Assembly (NCBI GenBank): GCA_016178535.1
Contig: JACOTD010000046.1
Span: forward strand, 1-45,482
Source of the DNA: Candidatus Peregrinibacteria bacterium
Lineage (GTDB): Bacteria > Patescibacteriota > Gracilibacteria > Peribacterales > Peribacteraceae
Direction of reading: 5' to 3'
DNA length: 45,482 nucleotides
Below the pieces are notes generated by a model. It did not search any database. It saw only the letters and a list, made by a program, of their open reading frames with translations, and was not told where the DNA came from. Of the stretch, positions 13,815 through 45,417 are shown one piece after another. Every line of letters starts with the position of its first letter. Within the stretch, counting starts at the first letter, position 1. The position numbers and the translations under genes were made by a program.

Positions 13815-13931
13815 GAGAATTACGAGTTACGAATGGCGAATGACGAGTTACGAGTTACGAATTACGAATTACGAATCAAAGACCAATACTCCAATGCCAT
13901 TCGTAACTCGTAATTCGTAATTCGTAATTCC
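13815..13931. repeat. heptanucleotide-periodic inverted-repeat element (H1)
   Basis: Left arm (ACGAATT/ACGAGTT)n 13815-13876, spacer, right arm reverse-complementary (TTCGTAA/CTCGTAA)n 13898-13931; 28 nt upstream of carA. Confidence 0.85.
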
Positions 13932-13959: not shown

Positions 13960-15132
13960 ATGGCCTCCCTTGTTCTTCAAGACGGAACCGTCTTCACAGG
14001 CACATCCTTCGGCGCACCGATCAATCGTGATGGTGAAGTCGTCTTCAACACCGGCATGGCCGGATACCCCGAGAGCCTCACGGATCCCAGTTACCGCGGG
14101 CAGATCCTCGTCTTCACGTATCCGCTCATCGGCAACTACGGCGTGCCGAGCGAGGAACTGAATGCATGGGGATTCTCCAAGAACTTCGAGAGCGAAGGGA
14201 TTCACGTGCGAGGCGTCATCGTCGCGGAGGTCAGCGATGATTACAGCCACCATACCGCGGTGAAGTCACTGGGTGACTGGCTCAAAGACCATGGCATACC
14301 GGCGATCACCGGAGTGGACACGAGGGCGCTCACGAAGAAGCTGCGGGAACATGGGGTGATGTTGGGGAAGATTGCGTCTGAGGAATTACGATTTACGAAT
14401 TACGATTTACGAATTGAGGATCCGAATGAGTTGAATCTCGTCGCGGAAGTCAGTTGTACCGAAGCCATCACCTATGAACCCGAACTCGCAACTCGCCATT
14501 CGCCATTCGCAACTGTCCTTGCCTACGACTGTGGCATGAAGCGCAACATTCTCCGGAGCTTCCTCAAGAGAGGAGTCCGAGTGATTCGTGTGCCCTGGGA
14601 TTTCGATCTCTCCCGCTTCGATGGCGAGTACGACGGCGTCTTCTTCAGCAACGGTCCGGGCGATCCCAAGACCTGCGTTCCCACGATCAAGAGCATGGCG
14701 TGGGCGATCGAGCGGGAGATCCCGACCTTCGGTATTTGCCTGGGCAATCAACTCATGGCGCTCGCGATCGGCGGCGATACGTTCAAATTGAAGTACGGGC
14801 ACCGCGGGGCGAATCAGCCGTGTGTGGAAATTGCCCCCACCCCCCGACCCCCTCCCCCTGAAGGGAGAGGGGGAGAATGTCAAGAATTCCAAAGCTCCGA
14901 GGGAATTGGAGGCCGCTGCATCATCACGAGTCAGAATCACGGCTTCGCAGTTTCTGAGGAGCTCCCCAAGGATTGGAGCGTGTGGTTCCGCAATGCCAAC
15001 GACGGAACGGTCGAAGGGATTCGTCACAAGAGCGGAACCTTCTTCTCCGTCCAATTCCACCCGGAAGCCACGCCCGGGCCGGAGGATGCAGAGTATTTGT
15101 TCGATGAATTTCTGAGCATTCTTCGAAAATAA
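13960..15132 (+). CDS. carA: carbamoyl-phosphate synthase small subunit
   Basis: MASLVLQDGTVFTGTSFGA…GEVVFNTGMAGYPESLTDPSYRGQILVFTYPLIGNYGVP; glutaminase motifs GPGDPKTC, FGICLGNQLMALA, GHRGANQP, ITSQNHGFAV, VQFHPEATPGPED. Confidence 0.95.
   Translation: MASLVLQDGTVFTGTSFGAPINRDGEVVFNTGMAGYPESLTDPSYRGQILVFTYPLIGNYGVPSEELNAWGFSKNFESEGIHVRGVIVAEVSDDYSHHTAVKSLGDWLKDHGIPAITGVDTRALTKKLREHGVMLGKIASEELRFTNYDLRIEDPNELNLVAEVSCTEAITYEPELATRHSPFATVLAYDCGMKRNILRSFLKRGVRVIRVPWDFDLSRFDGEYDGVFFSNGPGDPKTCVPTIKSMAWAIEREIPTFGICLGNQLMALAIGGDTFKLKYGHRGANQPCVEIAPTPRPPPPEGRGGECQEFQSSEGIGGRCIITSQNHGFAVSEELPKDWSVWFRNANDGTVEGIRHKSGTFFSVQFHPEATPGPEDAEYLFDEFLSILRK
14384..14415. repeat. heptad repeat inside carA (AATTACG/ATTTACG x4)
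   Basis: AATTACGATTTACGAATTACGATTTACGAATT, translated in frame as ELRFTNYDLRI. Confidence 0.85.
14483..14514. repeat. second heptad repeat inside carA
   Basis: AACTCGCAACTCGCCATTCGCCATTCGCAACT, in frame as ELATRHSPFAT; same units as the intergenic copy at 21521-21612. Confidence 0.8.
14832..14880. repeat. C-rich palindromic element inside carA
   Basis: TGCCCCCACCCCCCGACCCCCTCCCCCTgaAGGGAGAGGGGGAGAATGT; matches the 7422-7475 copy; in frame as APTPRPPPPEGRGGEC. Confidence 0.85.
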
Positions 15133-15213
15133 GAAACAAGAGACAAGATACAAACTGTGCATAGGAGCAATGGATCATTCTTTGTACCTTGTATCTTGCA
15201 TCTTGTATCTTCC
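15131..15213. repeat. heptad-periodic inverted-repeat element (H4)
   Basis: AAGAAACAAGAGACAAGATACAAA … GATCATTCTTTGTACCTTGTATCTTGCATCTTGTATCTTCC. Confidence 0.85.
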
Positions 15214-15219
15214 ATCCCG

Positions 15220-15936
15220 ATGCCTGTCATACCTCATACCATCCGCTGCCTCTCGCTGCGCGTCATCGCGCCGGACGTGTATGAGGTCGTCTTCACCAAG
15301 CCCGAAGGCTTCAGCTTCCGCGCCGGACAGTTCGTCCTCTTCGATGTTCCGCTCATCGAGAACAGAGACGACATCCAGACGCGAGCCTTCTCCATCGCAT
15401 CTGCTCCGAGCGAAGCAGCATTGCTCTTCGTCATCAAGCTCGTTCCCCATGGCCGAGCCAGCCGATGGATCGCCGAACTCCTCCATGAGGGGACCGAGGT
15501 CACGATGCGCGGACCATTCGGCATGTTCGTTCTCGATCCGGCGACGCAAAAACCCTTCGTCCTCGTCGCCACCGGCGCGGGCATCGCGCCCTTTCGCGCG
15601 TACATCCTCGATGCCATCGATCGCGGCGACCGCCGGCGGATCGACGTGCTCTTCTGCGTGCGCACCCAGGCCGATTTCTTCTGGATCGAGGACATCGAAG
15701 CTCTCGCGAGGAAGCATGGCAACCTCGGCCTGCATGTCACGCTCAGTCATCCTTCGGCTGATTGGAATGGTCTCACGGGTCGCGTCCAAGCCGTCCTCCC
15801 CGATCTCGTTTCGGACTTCATGGCCGTCACCCTCTACGCCTGCGGCAATCCCGAGATGACCAAAGACGTGAAGCGCCTCGCCCTCACGCAGTGGGGAATG
15901 GAGAAGAAGGATGTGCATGTCGAAGGCTACATTTGA
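15220..15936 (+). CDS. FAD/NAD(P)-binding oxidoreductase, ferredoxin-NADP reductase / PyrK-like
   Basis: TRAFSIASAP (FAD binding), VATGAGIAPFRAYI (NAD(P) binding), LYACGNPEMTKDVK (C-terminal FNR-family motif). Start taken at MPVIPHTIRC, just after the repeat element. Confidence 0.85.
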   Translation: MPVIPHTIRCLSLRVIAPDVYEVVFTKPEGFSFRAGQFVLFDVPLIENRDDIQTRAFSIASAPSEAALLFVIKLVPHGRASRWIAELLHEGTEVTMRGPFGMFVLDPATQKPFVLVATGAGIAPFRAYILDAIDRGDRRRIDVLFCVRTQADFFWIEDIEALARKHGNLGLHVTLSHPSADWNGLTGRVQAVLPDLVSDFMAVTLYACGNPEMTKDVKRLALTQWGMEKKDVHVEGYI

Positions 15937-16012
15937 ATTGCGAAGGGTGAAGGGCGAATTGCGAATGTTTTCATCATTCGCAATTCGCAACTGGCAATTC
16001 GCAATTCAATTC
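15935..16012. repeat. heptad-periodic inverted-repeat element (H5)
   Basis: GAATTGCGAAGGGTGAAGGGCGAATTGCGAATG … CATTCGCAATTCGCAACTGGCAATTCGCAATTC between two convergent genes. Confidence 0.8.
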
Positions 16013-16626
16013 CGTTCATCTGTGAGCCTCAACTCGCCCCGCTCGATCATCTCCAGCACCCTGGGGTACCACTCCTTCTCCAGTTCCTGCACTCTCTCTT
16101 TGAGCGTCTCCGGTGTGTCCGTGGGCAGCACGGGACACGTTTTTTGGAAGATGATTTTTCCCGTGTCGATGCCTTCATCCATCACGTGAATGGTCATGCC
16201 GGATTCCTTCTCGCCGGCCGCGATCACCGCTTCGTGCACCTTCATCCCGAACATGTTCCTCCCGCCGTGTTTGGGCAAGAGAGCGGGATGCACATTCAAG
16301 ATCCTGTTTGGCCACTCACGGATGCACTGTGGACTGACGATGTGCATCCAGCCCATTGCGGCGATGAGGAGATCGGGATGAGGGCCCGGTCCCACGAGCG
16401 CCAACTCCATGATGCTGCGCGGGATCAGGTGCCGGTACGAACCGGCCTCATCCGCATCGGGAACGAGGATCGGAATGTTGCACTGCCTCGCCTTGTGGGC
16501 ACAACCGCGATCCATGCGATCGGTAACGAGCCCCACGCAGCGTGCGCTGAGACTCCCATCCGCGATGCGGTCGAGGACGGCCTGGAAGGTGGTGCCGCGG
16601 GAGGAGGAGAGGACGACGAACTTCAA
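16006..16626 (-). CDS. purN: phosphoribosylglycinamide formyltransferase
   Basis: MKFVVLSSSRGTTFQAVLD…, LIAAMGWMHIVSP, ILNVHPALLPKHGG, SGMTIHVMDEGIDTGKIIFQ; TTG start. Confidence 0.9.
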   Translation of the reverse strand: MKFVVLSSSRGTTFQAVLDRIADGSLSARCVGLVTDRMDRGCAHKARQCNIPILVPDADEAGSYRHLIPRSIMELALVGPGPHPDLLIAAMGWMHIVSPQCIREWPNRILNVHPALLPKHGGRNMFGMKVHEAVIAAGEKESGMTIHVMDEGIDTGKIIFQKTCPVLPTDTPETLKERVQELEKEWYPRVLEMIERGELRLTDERN

Positions 16627-16685
16627 ATGGAAAATTGATAATTGAAAATTAAATTATCAATTTTCAATTATCAATTGTCAATTTC
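16626..16685. repeat. heptad-periodic inverted-repeat element (H6, AT-rich)
   Basis: AAAATTGATAATTGAAAATTAAATTATCAATTTTCAATTATCAATTGTCAATTT, directly upstream of purN. Confidence 0.75.
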
Positions 16686-17496
16686 CCGCCCGAAGGATTT
16701 TTCCTCCACAATCTCCGAAAAGATCTCCTTCGCGAGAAATTCCCGGCACCCACCCTTCGCTGTCGCTCAGGGCAAGTCCATGATCACGCACAATGACCGC
16801 GGGGATCGATTGGCCTGCGTTGCCCATGAGGAAGTTCGCGGCGACGGCGAGTTGGTCCGCGACGGCTTCAATCGTGATGTGGAGCGGCTTGCCGAAGAGA
16901 TCCAGCTTCCCGATTTGGCTCGCAAGCGGATCCATGCCGCTCACGGCGAGGGCGAAGGCGGTGACGCCCAGTCTTCGCGGACGCACGCAGGAGTCCGTGA
17001 GGATCACAGCAAGGCGGCAATTGTTCCTTGTTCCTTGTTCCTTGTTTCTTGTTCGATGCCCCATGAGCGCGCGTTTCATTTTTCCCACGGAACCAACGGG
17101 ATCTCTCGGCCACCCGATGGCGAATCCCGCCGCGACGTTCGATTCATCCAATCCCGCATTCGCCGTGAGGATCGATCCTGAGGAAAGTCCCTCGGGATGC
17201 AGCTCCGTGAGGAGCACGTGAGAACAATGGCCGACGATCTCTCCATGGAGGCGCTGCGTCTCTCGGAGAACTGCCTCGCAGAATTCGGCGCTGCGTCCGG
17301 TCTTCTCGCTCCAGGCAATCGCTTCTTGACCCGGCTTCAGGCTCGAGAGATCGATCATTGCTCCCTCGACGGTCGCGACGGCTTTGGAAGAGAGGACGAC
17401 AATGTCCCCGTCGCGTTGTTCGATCATCGTTGCGATCATGCTCGCGAGATCATCGTGCGGACGGAGAATCGGGGTGTGAACGGGAAGCAATTCCAT
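16678..17496 (-). CDS. CofE-like (coenzyme F420-0:L-glutamate ligase family) protein
   Basis: MELLPVHTPILRPHDDLASMI…IVVLSSKAVATVEGAM…SGSILTANAGLDESNVAAG…RLAVILTDSCVRPRRLGVTAFALAVSGMDPL…AVADQLAVAANFLMGNAGQSIPAVIVRD, family-typical order of motifs. Confidence 0.75.
   Translation of the reverse strand: MELLPVHTPILRPHDDLASMIATMIEQRDGDIVVLSSKAVATVEGAMIDLSSLKPGQEAIAWSEKTGRSAEFCEAVLRETQRLHGEIVGHCSHVLLTELHPEGLSSGSILTANAGLDESNVAAGFAIGWPRDPVGSVGKMKRALMGHRTRNKEQGTRNNCRLAVILTDSCVRPRRLGVTAFALAVSGMDPLASQIGKLDLFGKPLHITIEAVADQLAVAANFLMGNAGQSIPAVIVRDHGLALSDSEGWVPGISREGDLFGDCGGKILRAGN
17019..17054. repeat. heptad repeat inside the CofE-like gene
   Basis: AATTGTTCCTTGTTCCTTGTTCCTTGTTTCTTGTTC; on the coding strand (ACAAGGA)n, in frame as TRNKEQGTRNN. 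Confidence 0.85.
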
Positions 17497-17645: not shown

Positions 17646-20600
17646 ATGTCTCCCCAGACTCTTTGGCGCAGAATCACGATCGGGATCTTCCTCACAATGG
17701 CGTTGGGCGTTGTGCTGTTTGCGAGGACACAGTTCAAGATTCACCCACAGAAGCTCCAAGGGATAGCCGCCTGTCGGAATGTAGATGAATTTTGTGTGGA
17801 TGCTGGATGTTGTATTGGTCTTTTCTGCGACCAGTCCACAGGGTTCAAATGTGCTTTGGGCGGCTACACGTGCCATCGATGTTCCATGGCCCCCTGCGTC
17901 GCAGACCCCAACGGAACCCTAAATCAACAAGCGTGCCTGGCGAATTGCCCTCCCTTCGGGAGCCCCGCCTGTGGAAGTTCATCCTCTCGGCAATGTAACG
18001 TCGATGCAGATTGCGGTTCCCCACAGACGCTCTGTTCACTCGGCATCTGTCCAGAAAAATGTGATCAAACAACCCACATGTGCGTGCCCCTGAATCCCAC
18101 TATTCCCTACCCTCAATGTTGCGGATTCGGCCCCGTACCCGCACCTGCACCCGCCCCAGCGCCAGCACCCGCTCCCGTCCCCGCTCCAGCGCCAGCACCC
18201 GCTCCCGCCCCAGCTCCCGCAGGATCCCCATCCCCTTCTCCTTCACCGGCTCCAGCTCCAGCTCCCGCTCCATCTCCCTCACCCTCCCCCCCACCCCCTC
18301 CCCCCCCATCGGCCTCGAGCGCACCGCCGCAGTGCCAGACCGATCAGGACTGTGATCCCGGGTGCGGCATCTGCAATGGGCAGGTGAGTGGTATGACTTG
18401 TACTTGCAGTTCAGTTTGTGTAGGGGGCGTCTGTACGAGGATGGGGCGCCCGAAGATTTGCACGCCGTGCGGCGGTTCTTCCTCATCCGCATCTTCCTCA
18501 GCCTCCTCCGCTTCGTCGAGTGCCGGTTGCACGCCCTGCAACCAGGGCAAGTGCGATGGGGGCGACAGTTGCGTTCCCATCGGCCGAGGACAGTGCTGGA
18601 GAGAAGTGGTCGCTTGCGATGCGAACGGGTGTTTCATGGGCTGCTGGCCACAGCAGTGCGCATGCCAGGCATCATCCCAGAGTTCCGCCTCGAGCGCATC
18701 CTCGGCATCGTCTGCGAATTCCTCGGCGTCTTCGGCAAGTTCCTCCTCCTCGAGCACCGAGTACTTCTACTGTTGCCTCTCGCCGGGGATTGCTTGTTAC
18801 CAGGTCATCTCCTGTCCACCTCAATTTCAGAGGTATCCCGATCAGCAATCGTGCGACGCGGATTGCATCCGGTCGAGCGCATCATCTTCAGAAGCGAGTT
18901 CACAATCGAGCGCAACATCGTCATCATCGTCGACCACGGAGTGCACCGGCATCGAGTGCTTCGTCGGCGGTCAGGCGTTCTGCCAATTGCAAGATCCCGG
19001 CTCCAAATGCGTCGAAGACCTCAACAACCCCCCCCAGTGCTTCGATTGTGTCTCAGGCGGCAGCTCGAGCAGCGCGAATGGCGGCTCCTCCAGCAGCGCC
19101 TCTTCCGGATCGAACGGCTCGAATTCCTCCGGCTCCAAATCCTCCGGCTCGTCCTCGGCGGGATCGAAGTCTTCCGGTTCCTCGAAATCCGGAAGCGCAT
19201 CCTCCGGATCCAAGTCTTCCGGTTCTTCCAAATCGGGAAGCTCCTCCAGCGCTCCTCTCTTCTGCGATCCCTTTGGATGCATCCTCGGCGGCAATCAAGC
19301 CTGCGCCGATCAAGGGAAGAAATGCGTCGTCAATGTGAACAACCCGCCCAATTGTTTTGACTGTGAGGGGGGGTCCAGTTCCTCCTCACAAGGATCTTCC
19401 GGTTCGAACGGATCGAATTCCTCGGGTTCCAACTCCTCCAATTCTTCGTGCGATGGAGTACTCGTCTGCCACGCGCCACCGGCATGCGATCCCTTCGAAG
19501 GTCAGATCTGTCCTCCTCAAACTCCAATATGTGAGTGTGTGACGAACAGTTCTTCAGAATCCAATTCTTCGCAATCGTCGAGTTCCTCTTCCGTCTTCAC
19601 TGGGCTGTGCGGTGATGGACTCCTGCAGCAGGGCGAAGACTGCGATCTCGGTTCCACGTGCGCCAAGGATCCGGCGAGCTGCAATCGCGTACCGGGAACG
19701 GCGGGCGGGGTGTGCGCGTGCGATCCGCATGATCCCAACTGTCATCTGATCGCGGGCACGTCCTACCAGAAGGGATGCCAATGGCCGCGCTGCGGCGACG
19801 GCGTCATCAATAACTTCGTGAATCTCAACGGCTTGCAGCTGAACTTCGACTTCCTTCGCGAGGAGTGCGACGACGGTCCCAAGAACGGGACGCCGGACGA
19901 CCCCTGCTCCGTCTCGTGCAGAATCATCACGAGCTCTTCCTCCTCTTCCAGCATCCGTCTCCTCTCCTGCGGCAACGGCATCCTCGATCCCGGCGAGCAG
20001 TGTGATTTCGGCACGCAGAACGGCCTGCCCGGCAGTGCGTGTTCTTCCTACTGTCAATTCACCGCCCTCCCAGGCTGCGGCGACGGTCATCTGGATCAAG
20101 GCGAAATCTGCGACGACGGGGCGAGCAACGGCACCCCCGGCGACGCCTGCACGCTCGAGTGCAAGAGGACGATCACGCAACCGTGCAGCGGGAGGCAACA
20201 GTGCGGCAGCAACGTCTGCTCGAGCGGCGCCTGCGCGGGCTGCACCACGGATGCCCAGTGTCCGGGAGGCGAGAGCTGTGTGAGCGGCCTCTGTATCCCC
20301 AAGGCGTCCTGCGGCGACGGCATCCGCCAACCGGGCGAGCGATGCGACGACGGATCGCGCTGCGCCGCCGATCCCGCAAGCTGCAACAGAGCACCCCTCA
20401 CGCGCGCCGCCAATTGCGCATGCATCCCCGGCGATCCCACTTGCATCGCCCTGCCCGATCTGATGTGGAGTGAGGCGTGCACGTGGTCCTTCTGCGGCAA
20501 TGACATCCTGGATAACTGGGCGGTATGGAACGGCAAGACCGTGGACTACGTCGGTTTGCACGAGGAATGCGACCATGGCGCGCAGAACGGCAAACCAGGC

Positions 20601-21497
20601 GACGGTTGCACAACGTCCTGCCTGCTCGTTCGTCCGGACCTCTGCGGGAATGGCGCCGTCGATGCGGGGGAGCAGTGCGATCTCGGTTCCAAGAACGGCA
20701 AGCCGGGGATCACCTGTTCCTCCACGTGCCAATCGGTCGTGCCTGCACGCTGCGGCAATGCACGACTCGAGGGAGGCGAGGAGTGCGATGATGGAGGCAA
20801 GAACGGCACGCCCGGCGACGGCTGCTCGAATTCCTGCACGCGGCTCACGCTGTCTCGCACCTTCTGCGGCAATGGCAAGCTCGATCCCGGCGAAGAGTGC
20901 GATCATGCCGACCAGAACGGCACGGACGGCGTCTGTTCGGGGAACTGCCTGCTCCTCCAGGGATTCTGCGGGGATGGCATCGTCCAGAAGCTGCTGGGCG
21001 AGCAGTGCGAGCCTTCCACGTTCGACAATTCGCTGCCCTACCACTGCGGCAACGACTGCCGGTTTGCGAGCGACTTCTGCGGCGACGGCGTCATTCAGGC
21101 CGGCGAACAGTGCGATGACGCCGGCTTCAATTCCGACGCGCTCCCCGATCACTGCCGCACGAACTGCTCCGCCTCCCGCTGCGGCGACGGCATCCTCGAT
21201 TCCGGCGAACAGTGCGATGACGGCGCTCGCAATGGAAAACCCGGCGACCCCTGCGATCTCTTCTGCCGCATCAAGAATGCCGCGGCCCCCGAGAACCTCG
21301 CGCAAACGATCGAGCTGCCGTTGCTCGCGTCCTTCACGCGGCAGCCGCAAACGGGAACGGGTATCACCACCATCGCCATCTCGCATCCGCCTGCGGGCAG
21401 AACCGGTCCCGCGTCCGTGGCGTTCATGGCGGCAGGTGCGGCTGCGGGGTACGCGTGGGTGAGGAGAAGAAGAAGGAGGAAGATGGAGAGGGGATGA
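17646..21497 (+). CDS. giant secreted/cell-surface protein with DUF4215-type Cys-rich repeats, Ser-rich and Pro-Ala linkers and C-terminal membrane anchor
   Basis: 1283 aa; N-terminal signal/anchor ITIGIFLTMALGVVLFA; PAPAPAPAP tract; long S-rich linkers; many CGDGxxxxGEQCDDGxxNGxPGDxCxxxC repeats; C-terminal VAFMAAGAAAGYAWVRRRRRRK. Confidence 0.9.
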   Translation: MSPQTLWRRITIGIFLTMALGVVLFARTQFKIHPQKLQGIAACRNVDEFCVDAGCCIGLFCDQSTGFKCALGGYTCHRCSMAPCVADPNGTLNQQACLANCPPFGSPACGSSSSRQCNVDADCGSPQTLCSLGICPEKCDQTTHMCVPLNPTIPYPQCCGFGPVPAPAPAPAPAPAPVPAPAPAPAPAPAPAGSPSPSPSPAPAPAPAPSPSPSPPPPPPPSASSAPPQCQTDQDCDPGCGICNGQVSGMTCTCSSVCVGGVCTRMGRPKICTPCGGSSSSASSSASSASSSAGCTPCNQGKCDGGDSCVPIGRGQCWREVVACDANGCFMGCWPQQCACQASSQSSASSASSASSANSSASSASSSSSSTEYFYCCLSPGIACYQVISCPPQFQRYPDQQSCDADCIRSSASSSEASSQSSATSSSSSTTECTGIECFVGGQAFCQLQDPGSKCVEDLNNPPQCFDCVSGGSSSSANGGSSSSASSGSNGSNSSGSKSSGSSSAGSKSSGSSKSGSASSGSKSSGSSKSGSSSSAPLFCDPFGCILGGNQACADQGKKCVVNVNNPPNCFDCEGGSSSSSQGSSGSNGSNSSGSNSSNSSCDGVLVCHAPPACDPFEGQICPPQTPICECVTNSSSESNSSQSSSSSSVFTGLCGDGLLQQGEDCDLGSTCAKDPASCNRVPGTAGGVCACDPHDPNCHLIAGTSYQKGCQWPRCGDGVINNFVNLNGLQLNFDFLREECDDGPKNGTPDDPCSVSCRIITSSSSSSSIRLLSCGNGILDPGEQCDFGTQNGLPGSACSSYCQFTALPGCGDGHLDQGEICDDGASNGTPGDACTLECKRTITQPCSGRQQCGSNVCSSGACAGCTTDAQCPGGESCVSGLCIPKASCGDGIRQPGERCDDGSRCAADPASCNRAPLTRAANCACIPGDPTCIALPDLMWSEACTWSFCGNDILDNWAVWNGKTVDYVGLHEECDHGAQNGKPGDGCTTSCLLVRPDLCGNGAVDAGEQCDLGSKNGKPGITCSSTCQSVVPARCGNARLEGGEECDDGGKNGTPGDGCSNSCTRLTLSRTFCGNGKLDPGEECDHADQNGTDGVCSGNCLLLQGFCGDGIVQKLLGEQCEPSTFDNSLPYHCGNDCRFASDFCGDGVIQAGEQCDDAGFNSDALPDHCRTNCSASRCGDGILDSGEQCDDGARNGKPGDPCDLFCRIKNAAAPENLAQTIELPLLASFTRQPQTGTGITTIAISHPPAGRTGPASVAFMAAGAAAGYAWVRRRRRRKMERG

Positions 21498-21520
21498 GGC
21501 GAATGCCAGAGATCACATGG

Positions 21521-21612
21521 GAATTGCAAGTTGCGAAGTGCGAATGGCGAATGACGTCATCAACTCGCAACTCGCAACTCGCAACTCGCAACTCGCACTT
21601 CGCAATTCGTTC
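21521..21612. repeat. heptad-periodic inverted-repeat element (H8)
   Basis: GAATTGCAAGTTGCGAAGTGCGAATGGCGAATGAC / CAACTCGCAACTCGCAACTCGCAACTCGCAACTCGCACTTCGCAATTCG. Confidence 0.85.
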
Positions 21613-22595: not shown

Positions 22596-22691
22596 GAAGA
22601 AACAAGAAACAAGACGCAAGAAACAAAAAGCCAGTGGCCAGTCAGACATTGGTGAATTCTTTGCATCTTGTGTCTTGCATCTTCTTTCTTT
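22596..22691. repeat. heptad-periodic inverted-repeat element (H9)
   Basis: GAAGAAACAAGAAACAAGACGCAAGAAACAAA … GTGAATTCTTTGCATCTTGTGTCTTGCATCTTCTTTC. Confidence 0.85.
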
Positions 22692-22715
22692 CATCGAGAT
22701 CAGTATGATGCCAGC

Positions 22716-23204: not shown

Positions 23205-27113
<3,909 letters not shown>

Positions 27114-45312: not shown

Positions 45313-45417
45313 TCTGCGATCTTTCCCCATCCACAAGCCAAACCGTAATTCCCGATTCCCACGCCTAGCGCAGATTGACTTGCCATGTTCTGAACAACTC
45401 CTGTATACGTATTGGCC

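Follow-up and report, generated by a model that had tools for sequence, protein, structure and literature searches.

In-frame heptad arrays and C-rich palindromes with genome-specific vocabularies at variable loops of CarA and in other genes of a Peribacteraceae genome

The window analyzed here, a stretch of 45,482 nucleotides, is contig 28 in a 92-contig, 1.25 Mb draft genome (Peribacteria, candidate phyla radiation). Among its genes is carA, whose product scores 448 bits to NCBIfam TIGR01368 (cut-off 307) and whose nearest relatives in public records are from Candidatus Peribacteria and Peregrinibacteria. An AlphaFold2 model of this CarA, built with 38 family and outgroup sequences (mean pLDDT 88, pTM 0.89), matches E. 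coli CarA (1jdb) with a TM of 0.82 by query length in Foldseek. A preliminary description of the sequence had placed three repeat segments inside carA, all in frame, and these are confirmed as heptad array A, heptad array B and a C-rich palindrome (Table 1). Array B lies in inverse orientation relative to array A. As in the intergenic hairpins of this genome, the purine-rich arm comes first; the matched arms are separated by 77 nt of coding sequence. Because the polarity is the same as in those hairpins, arrays A and B need not be independent. A single joint hairpin spanning both is unsupported, the RNA fold of the pair being no better than that of shuffled sequence (z +1.3). The RNA folds of the C-rich inserts are likewise unremarkable (z -1.4 and, for the rpoC palindrome, -0.5).

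Table 1. Repeat features of the window and the carA host gene
Feature	Position	Strand	Units or sequence	Translation	Basis
Intergenic heptad hairpin just upstream of carA; arms 13817-13876 and 13896-13930	13817..13930		carA-array family		
carA, carbamoyl-phosphate synthase small subunit, host gene	13960..15132	+		390 aa	NCBIfam TIGR01368, Foldseek
Heptad array A in carA	14383..14415	+	GAATTACGATTTACGAATTACGATTTACGAATT; GAATTAC/GATTTAC	ELRFTNYDLRI	
Heptad array B in carA	14483..14514	+	AACTCGCAACTCGCCATTCGCCATTCGCAACT; AACTCGC/CATTCGC	ELATRHSPFAT	
C-rich palindrome in carA; core 14848-14872	14832..14880	+		APTPRPPPPEGRGGEC	
Heptad pair across and beyond the carA end	15127..15216		AAACAAG / TTGTATC family		
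Intergenic heptad hairpin	15935..16009		GAATTGC family		
Intergenic heptad hairpin	16625..16684		AAATTGA / AATTATC family		
In-frame heptad array within CofE-like gene (16678-17496)	17021..17053	-	AACAAGG family	RTRNKEQGTRNN	
Intergenic heptad pair	21513..21609		GAATTGC / AACTCGC family		
Intergenic heptad pair	22597..22695		AAGAAAC / TTGCATC family		
Second C-rich palindrome, in frame in rpoC (23205-27113)	25060..25094	+		13 residues	
Intergenic heptad pair close to the contig end	45204..45314		CAAGATA / TTGTTTC family		

The DNA motifs of carA also recur between genes of the window, as had been claimed, at 13817-13930 (RNA fold z -6.1), 15935-16009 (z -7.8) and 21513-21609. An Rfam search of the window gives zero matches. 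Two further kinds of repeat were observed. Positions 19539-21497 and 1450-2100 encode large proteins rich in repeats, namely cysteine-rich CGDG repeats in tandem and a region of proline/glycine-rich repeats; they may resemble the large cysteine-rich proteins described from Peribacteria. The 25-nt sequence GCTAGGCGTGGGAATCGGGAATTAC, present in the window at 88-170 and 45342-45369, occurs in 47 copies, every one within 300 nt of a contig end, and probably represents the terminal inverted repeats of a multicopy insertion sequence that broke the assembly.

In the CarA model, array A falls in the loop from strand 134-140 to helix 160-164, array B in the interdomain loop that joins strands 170-172 and 185-190, and the palindrome in the loop from strand 286-290 to strand 320-323. 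All three insert sites lie between secondary-structure elements of this one confident model, and two of the three are low-confidence stretches, the pLDDT of the insert blocks being 62 at site 1, 82 at site 2 and 43-57 at site 3. Canonical CarA had been described as much shorter at these positions; this holds for site 3, which is ~24 residues longer than in human CPS1, but not for sites 1 and 2, which are ~5 residues longer each and where the inserts substitute for a naturally variable loop.

The carA segments are members of a much larger set. A survey of 1.20 of the 1.25 Mb, taken as stretches with runs of N removed, returns 199 period-7 tandem arrays, compared with 7-27 for periods 5, 6 and 8-11, while simulated sequence with the same dinucleotide frequencies contains zero period-7 arrays at a stricter threshold. 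The 199 comprise 113 intergenic arrays, 50 that lie within called genes with a margin of 30 nt or more, and 36 at gene edges, the last being left unclassified; these gene and intergenic counts are approximate because a home-made hexamer model supplied the gene calls. The intragenic arrays are spread over 39 called genes. Hosts identified by NCBIfam include fmt, rplV, valS, sufC, sufS, guaA, wecB, carB, der, leuS, purH, tsaC, yebC, ligA, ugd, rsmG, rsmF, pyrC, murB, murD, murL, transketolase, tpiA and a heavy-metal ATPase, and in most named host genes the family match spans the array. The same 1.20 Mb has 14 C-rich palindromes, and nine of these lie within genes, carA and rpoC among the hosts. 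Repetition of the motifs across the genome, inside genes as well as outside, is as the preliminary description expected; it rightly recognized the presence of the repeats but understated their extent, since 39 genes and much of the family carry arrays. Stop-free words are commoner in genes (36/50) than between genes (59/113; p 0.025).

Arrays have a median length of ~30 nt, and their arms and loops vary from copy to copy. An inverse partner occurs within 120 nt for 67 of the 113 intergenic arrays and 11 of the 50 intragenic ones, as against 1 of 194 control flanks 3 kb away. In the main word family, GA[AGT][TG][TG][AG]C, 33 of 34 pairs run in one polarity with the purine-rich arm leading, carA arrays A and B among them. 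Hairpin loops are mostly unique, with a few related to one another. No target-site duplication was seen at the arrays, and no clean empty/filled pair with such a duplication was found.

The words in genes are those found between them: 32 of 50 intragenic arrays contain words identical to intergenic words, whereas shuffled words give 2.1 (maximum 6 in 300). The 10-20 kb flanks available for named family members contain too few arrays to extend this comparison. The most common words, such as GAATTGC, GAATTAC and GAGTTGC, are without any G run. Multi-word phrases common to different loci do not exceed a first-order word (Markov) null. Pattern searches covering eight family genomes reveal that heptad vocabularies are genome-specific. 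For instance, GCGARTTGCGARTTGCGA occurs 80 times in this genome and not once in the seven relatives. Three other patterns, AATGGAWAATGGAWAATGGA, TCAGAGRTCAGAGRTCAGA and AGCGAYMAGCGAYMAGCGA, were designed from the CarA loops of G016, of G037, and of G025 and G029. The first is found 93 times in G016, 36 in G037, 14 in G025 and 4 in this genome; the second, with 20 occurrences among the eight genomes, is confined to G037; the third is found in G025, G029 and G040, with a single copy in this genome.

In an alignment of 49 CarA sequences the three insert stretches are hypervariable. Other genera of the family fill these loops with different heptads, including CAAAATG, AGCGATA, GTAGAAT, GGTCAGA, AAGTCAT, GGACCGC and GGGATCA, and some family CarA loops hold C-rich palindromes or other repeat-like blocks, while CarA from outside the family has short loops. 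When 40 family sequences (120 loops) were scored for period 7 at a similarity threshold of 12, 24 arrays were found in the loops (6.0 kb, 17 sequences) versus 1 in the remaining 39.8 kb (p 2e-20); nine outgroup carA genes have zero such arrays, with a top score of 6. These repeats are interspersed, genome-specific, in frame and located at the same variable CarA loops in many genera. At the three sites, congener and family sequences have either short loops or other repeats, and neither homologs that keep the same residues without repeats nor motifs that fail to repeat, the two outcomes under which the preliminary description was to be abandoned, were encountered. Two further observations concern individual genomes. 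The CarA loops of G008 (L004) and G039 (L044) contain repeats of the CCTGAGCC/CTTCGAC type, and G040 has two carA copies (C14 L011, C20 L032) with a near-identical 105-nt stretch at site 2 and differing sites 1 and 3.

Change over shorter distances can be followed in G001, the sole congener compared. Eight orthologous arrays are kept there, one is absent (PurH site 2), one is replaced (Der) and one is shortened (RplV). The kept arrays are largely gap-free but have altered words. At CarA site 3 the C-rich palindrome of this genome is matched in the congener by AAAATTG heptads. The eight kept arrays differ at 41 bases, of which the three most variable of the seven word columns take 34 (p 1.3e-7) and the four most variable 37 (p 3.9e-6), although the sample is small. 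Arrays inside genes thus keep to the genome's heptad vocabulary as they change between congeners. Because protein-level selection has no reason to follow a 7-nt period, the sequence comparison implies that a DNA-level process or constraint shapes array changes inside genes. In G028, of which 0.80 Mb of the single-contig genome was compared, including a 40 kb masked run, orthologs of the host genes mostly lack the insert or have a different repeat, several of them with G028's own repeats in the same place. To illustrate, the rpoC palindrome is missing from the G028 ortholog, and the ortholog of the CofE-like gene is shorter at the array site. The G028 RsmG ortholog has its loop filled by the run PNPNPNPHPHP.

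These features are probably best explained by host-specific heptad and hairpin repeats that are copied into genes and survive only where they are in frame, stop-free and in tolerant loops. Each Peribacteraceae genome would possess its own heptanucleotide vocabulary, in arrays of ~30 nt that often form convergent hairpin arms, plus a C-rich palindrome, and array copies would be seeded at many places, genes included. Copying at the DNA level would move heptad words rather than one fixed element; the sharing of phrases no higher than the null, together with the mostly unique hairpin loops, argues against plain whole-element copying. Template switching or gene conversion between arrays may be the route, with slippage extending them. 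Selection would then purge any insertion that disrupts the frame, introduces a stop or falls in the protein core, so that the remaining ones are translated as disordered, near-neutral surface loops; in carA, seeding and survival would have happened at three loops. Since the word length of 7 is not divisible by 3, reading a long array in any of the three forward frames yields one and the same cycle of seven residues; a stop-free word is therefore stop-free whatever the frame, which would help heptads to survive in genes. Counting against the disordered-loop part of this reading, CarA site 2 is modelled fairly well (pLDDT 82). Moreover, since most of the arrays compared with the congener are common to both genomes, some loops may hold a rewritten old insert and not a new insertion.

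A bolder reading is an ongoing genome-wide rewriting of heptad arrays toward the current vocabulary, essential genes included, by which loops would be repeatedly refilled with species-specific peptides, through concerted evolution by conversion or through templated heptad synthesis. We regard this reading as rather unlikely. If true, array rewriting would be a kind of mutational system distinct from both transposable elements and simple microsatellites.

It is also improbable that the repeats are a classical non-autonomous mobile element of RPE, MITE or REP type, that is, a fixed palindrome moved by a transposase such as RAYT. The hairpins of fixed polarity and the in-frame gene insertions would fit such an element, as would the few mutually related hairpin loops and the Y1/RAYT matches in 23 of 40 genomes searched. 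However, the copies do not share a unit: they vary in arm words, arm length and loop, phrase sharing is at the level of the null and no target-site duplication was seen at the arrays. This genome has two Y1 matches, one of which sits within leuS, and G012 has CarA heptads without a Y1 (PF01797) match. Spread driven by RAYT is accordingly disfavoured, as a fixed unit is lacking and the repeats do not depend on a Y1 gene.

A separate observation concerns that leuS gene. LeuRS (G000 C37:11417-14446, L167) carries at residues ~270-393, in the CP1 editing region, an in-frame block matching REP-associated/IS200-type Y1 transposases (PF01797, 63 bits; NF047646), with HxH and YxxxNP motifs present. 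The block is likewise found in leuS of G001, G010, G021, G027 and G031, and a Y1 match in the leuS frame occurs in G053, which belongs to another family.

Local replication slippage, with each array arising in place in loops that tolerate low complexity, is quite improbable as the whole explanation. Adjacent words within an array are identical in 27% of cases versus 10% after shuffling, as slippage would produce, and earlier work, as summarized in PMC4679880, found that in many bacteria heptads outnumber all other classes of long repeat, and proposed slippage as the explanation. Slippage alone, however, predicts unrelated words at each locus, whereas intragenic/intergenic word matches occur at 15 times expectation and the words are genome-specific; it also leaves the inverted partners and the C-rich palindrome unexplained.

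There is a slim chance that the inserts are selected, either as DNA or RNA hairpins (protein binding, mRNA stability) or as added peptides functional in the host gene. The column bias within words could alternatively reflect selection on DNA or RNA sequence. In favour of selected inserts, base changes in coding sequence follow the 7-nt word pattern in a manner not expected from protein-level selection, and the hairpins between genes fold very stably (z -6 to -8). Against this, the carA pair and the rpoC palindrome do not fold unusually well, and the repeats differ among genera at the same loop and are missing from many orthologs. A terminator role was considered and rejected, as array-occupied gaps are not enriched between convergent genes (11/115 convergent). 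Finally, an assembly or gene-calling artefact, conceivable for a 92-contig draft metagenome genome whose contigs often end in a repeat, is refuted by independent genomes, as the same kind of inserts occurs in orthologs of the congener, of single-contig G028 and of named public records, and the hosts are named core enzymes whose family matches run through the inserts.

Insertion of repeats by host-specific copying, as preferred here, would mean that the in-frame invasion of core proteins by repeats, known from Rickettsiales, also occurs in a small-genome lineage of the candidate phyla radiation. The density is high, with about 40 host genes in this draft, and the many genera with different repeats in the same enzyme loops constitute a natural series. 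It becomes possible to test by what means short repeats spread where no transposase is obvious, and how large a foreign peptide load the loop of an essential enzyme will take. There is also a warning, in that a variable loop of such a protein may represent repeat DNA and not adapted sequence. Our literature searches returned no report of such repeats in Peribacteria; a paper on five complete Peribacteria genomes describes indels of tens of bases in twelve proteins, with no repeat family mentioned.

Several known systems share part of these features. REP/REPIN sequences with RAYT are also short dispersed hairpins, and Y1 transposases do occur in the Peribacteraceae family, but here neither a shared unit, such as a fixed short palindrome spread by a matching Y1 transposase, nor a transposase link was found, heptads being present in G012 without a Y1 match. 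In Beggiatoaceae, TAACTGA forms abundant short tandem heptanucleotides, a few of them within or overlapping genes (PMC4679880); this system differs in having one fixed word, located mostly just upstream of start codons and suggested to be regulatory. The repeats of Xanthomonas (GGGAATC) and Nostoc (GGGGATT) are, as here, dispersed period-7 arrays, and the Xanthomonas heptamers often occur in convergent pairs with the potential to fold into a hairpin (PMC4692102). Those genomes have one G-rich motif each, preferably intergenic and studied as a G-quadruplex former. The present genome also has an excess of dispersed heptamers and convergent pairs able to form hairpins, but not the G-tracts in four units that give G-quadruplex potential; many of its words are without G-tracts, and a quarter of its arrays lie in genes, in frame.

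The likeness that had been proposed, to Rickettsia palindromic elements that add peptides to host proteins, though with motifs of a different kind and at least two families in the same gene, is supported by the alignment, genome-wide and structural comparisons. Like the palindromic elements of Rickettsia and Wolbachia (RPE, WPE), the repeats are interspersed and palindromic, with several families per genome and the frame kept in conserved genes. RPE and WPE inserts lie in exposed regions; the CarA inserts lie in loops of one AlphaFold2 model. Different groups of RPE can occupy the same site in orthologs, which has been described as a hotspot or divergence (PMC3767692), and an RPE-inserted peptide can be translated and tolerated, as in Gmk (PMC2229807). 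The likeness fails in one respect, in that the elements are not simple copies of a fixed palindrome: RPE units are palindromes of ~100-150 bp with a recognizable family sequence, whereas the Peribacteraceae arrays are heptad arrays of ~30 nt, alone or in hairpins, with a vocabulary that differs from genome to genome, in a different phylum. What appears to be new is the combination of RPE-like and heptad features with genome-specific vocabularies and word-respecting change inside genes.
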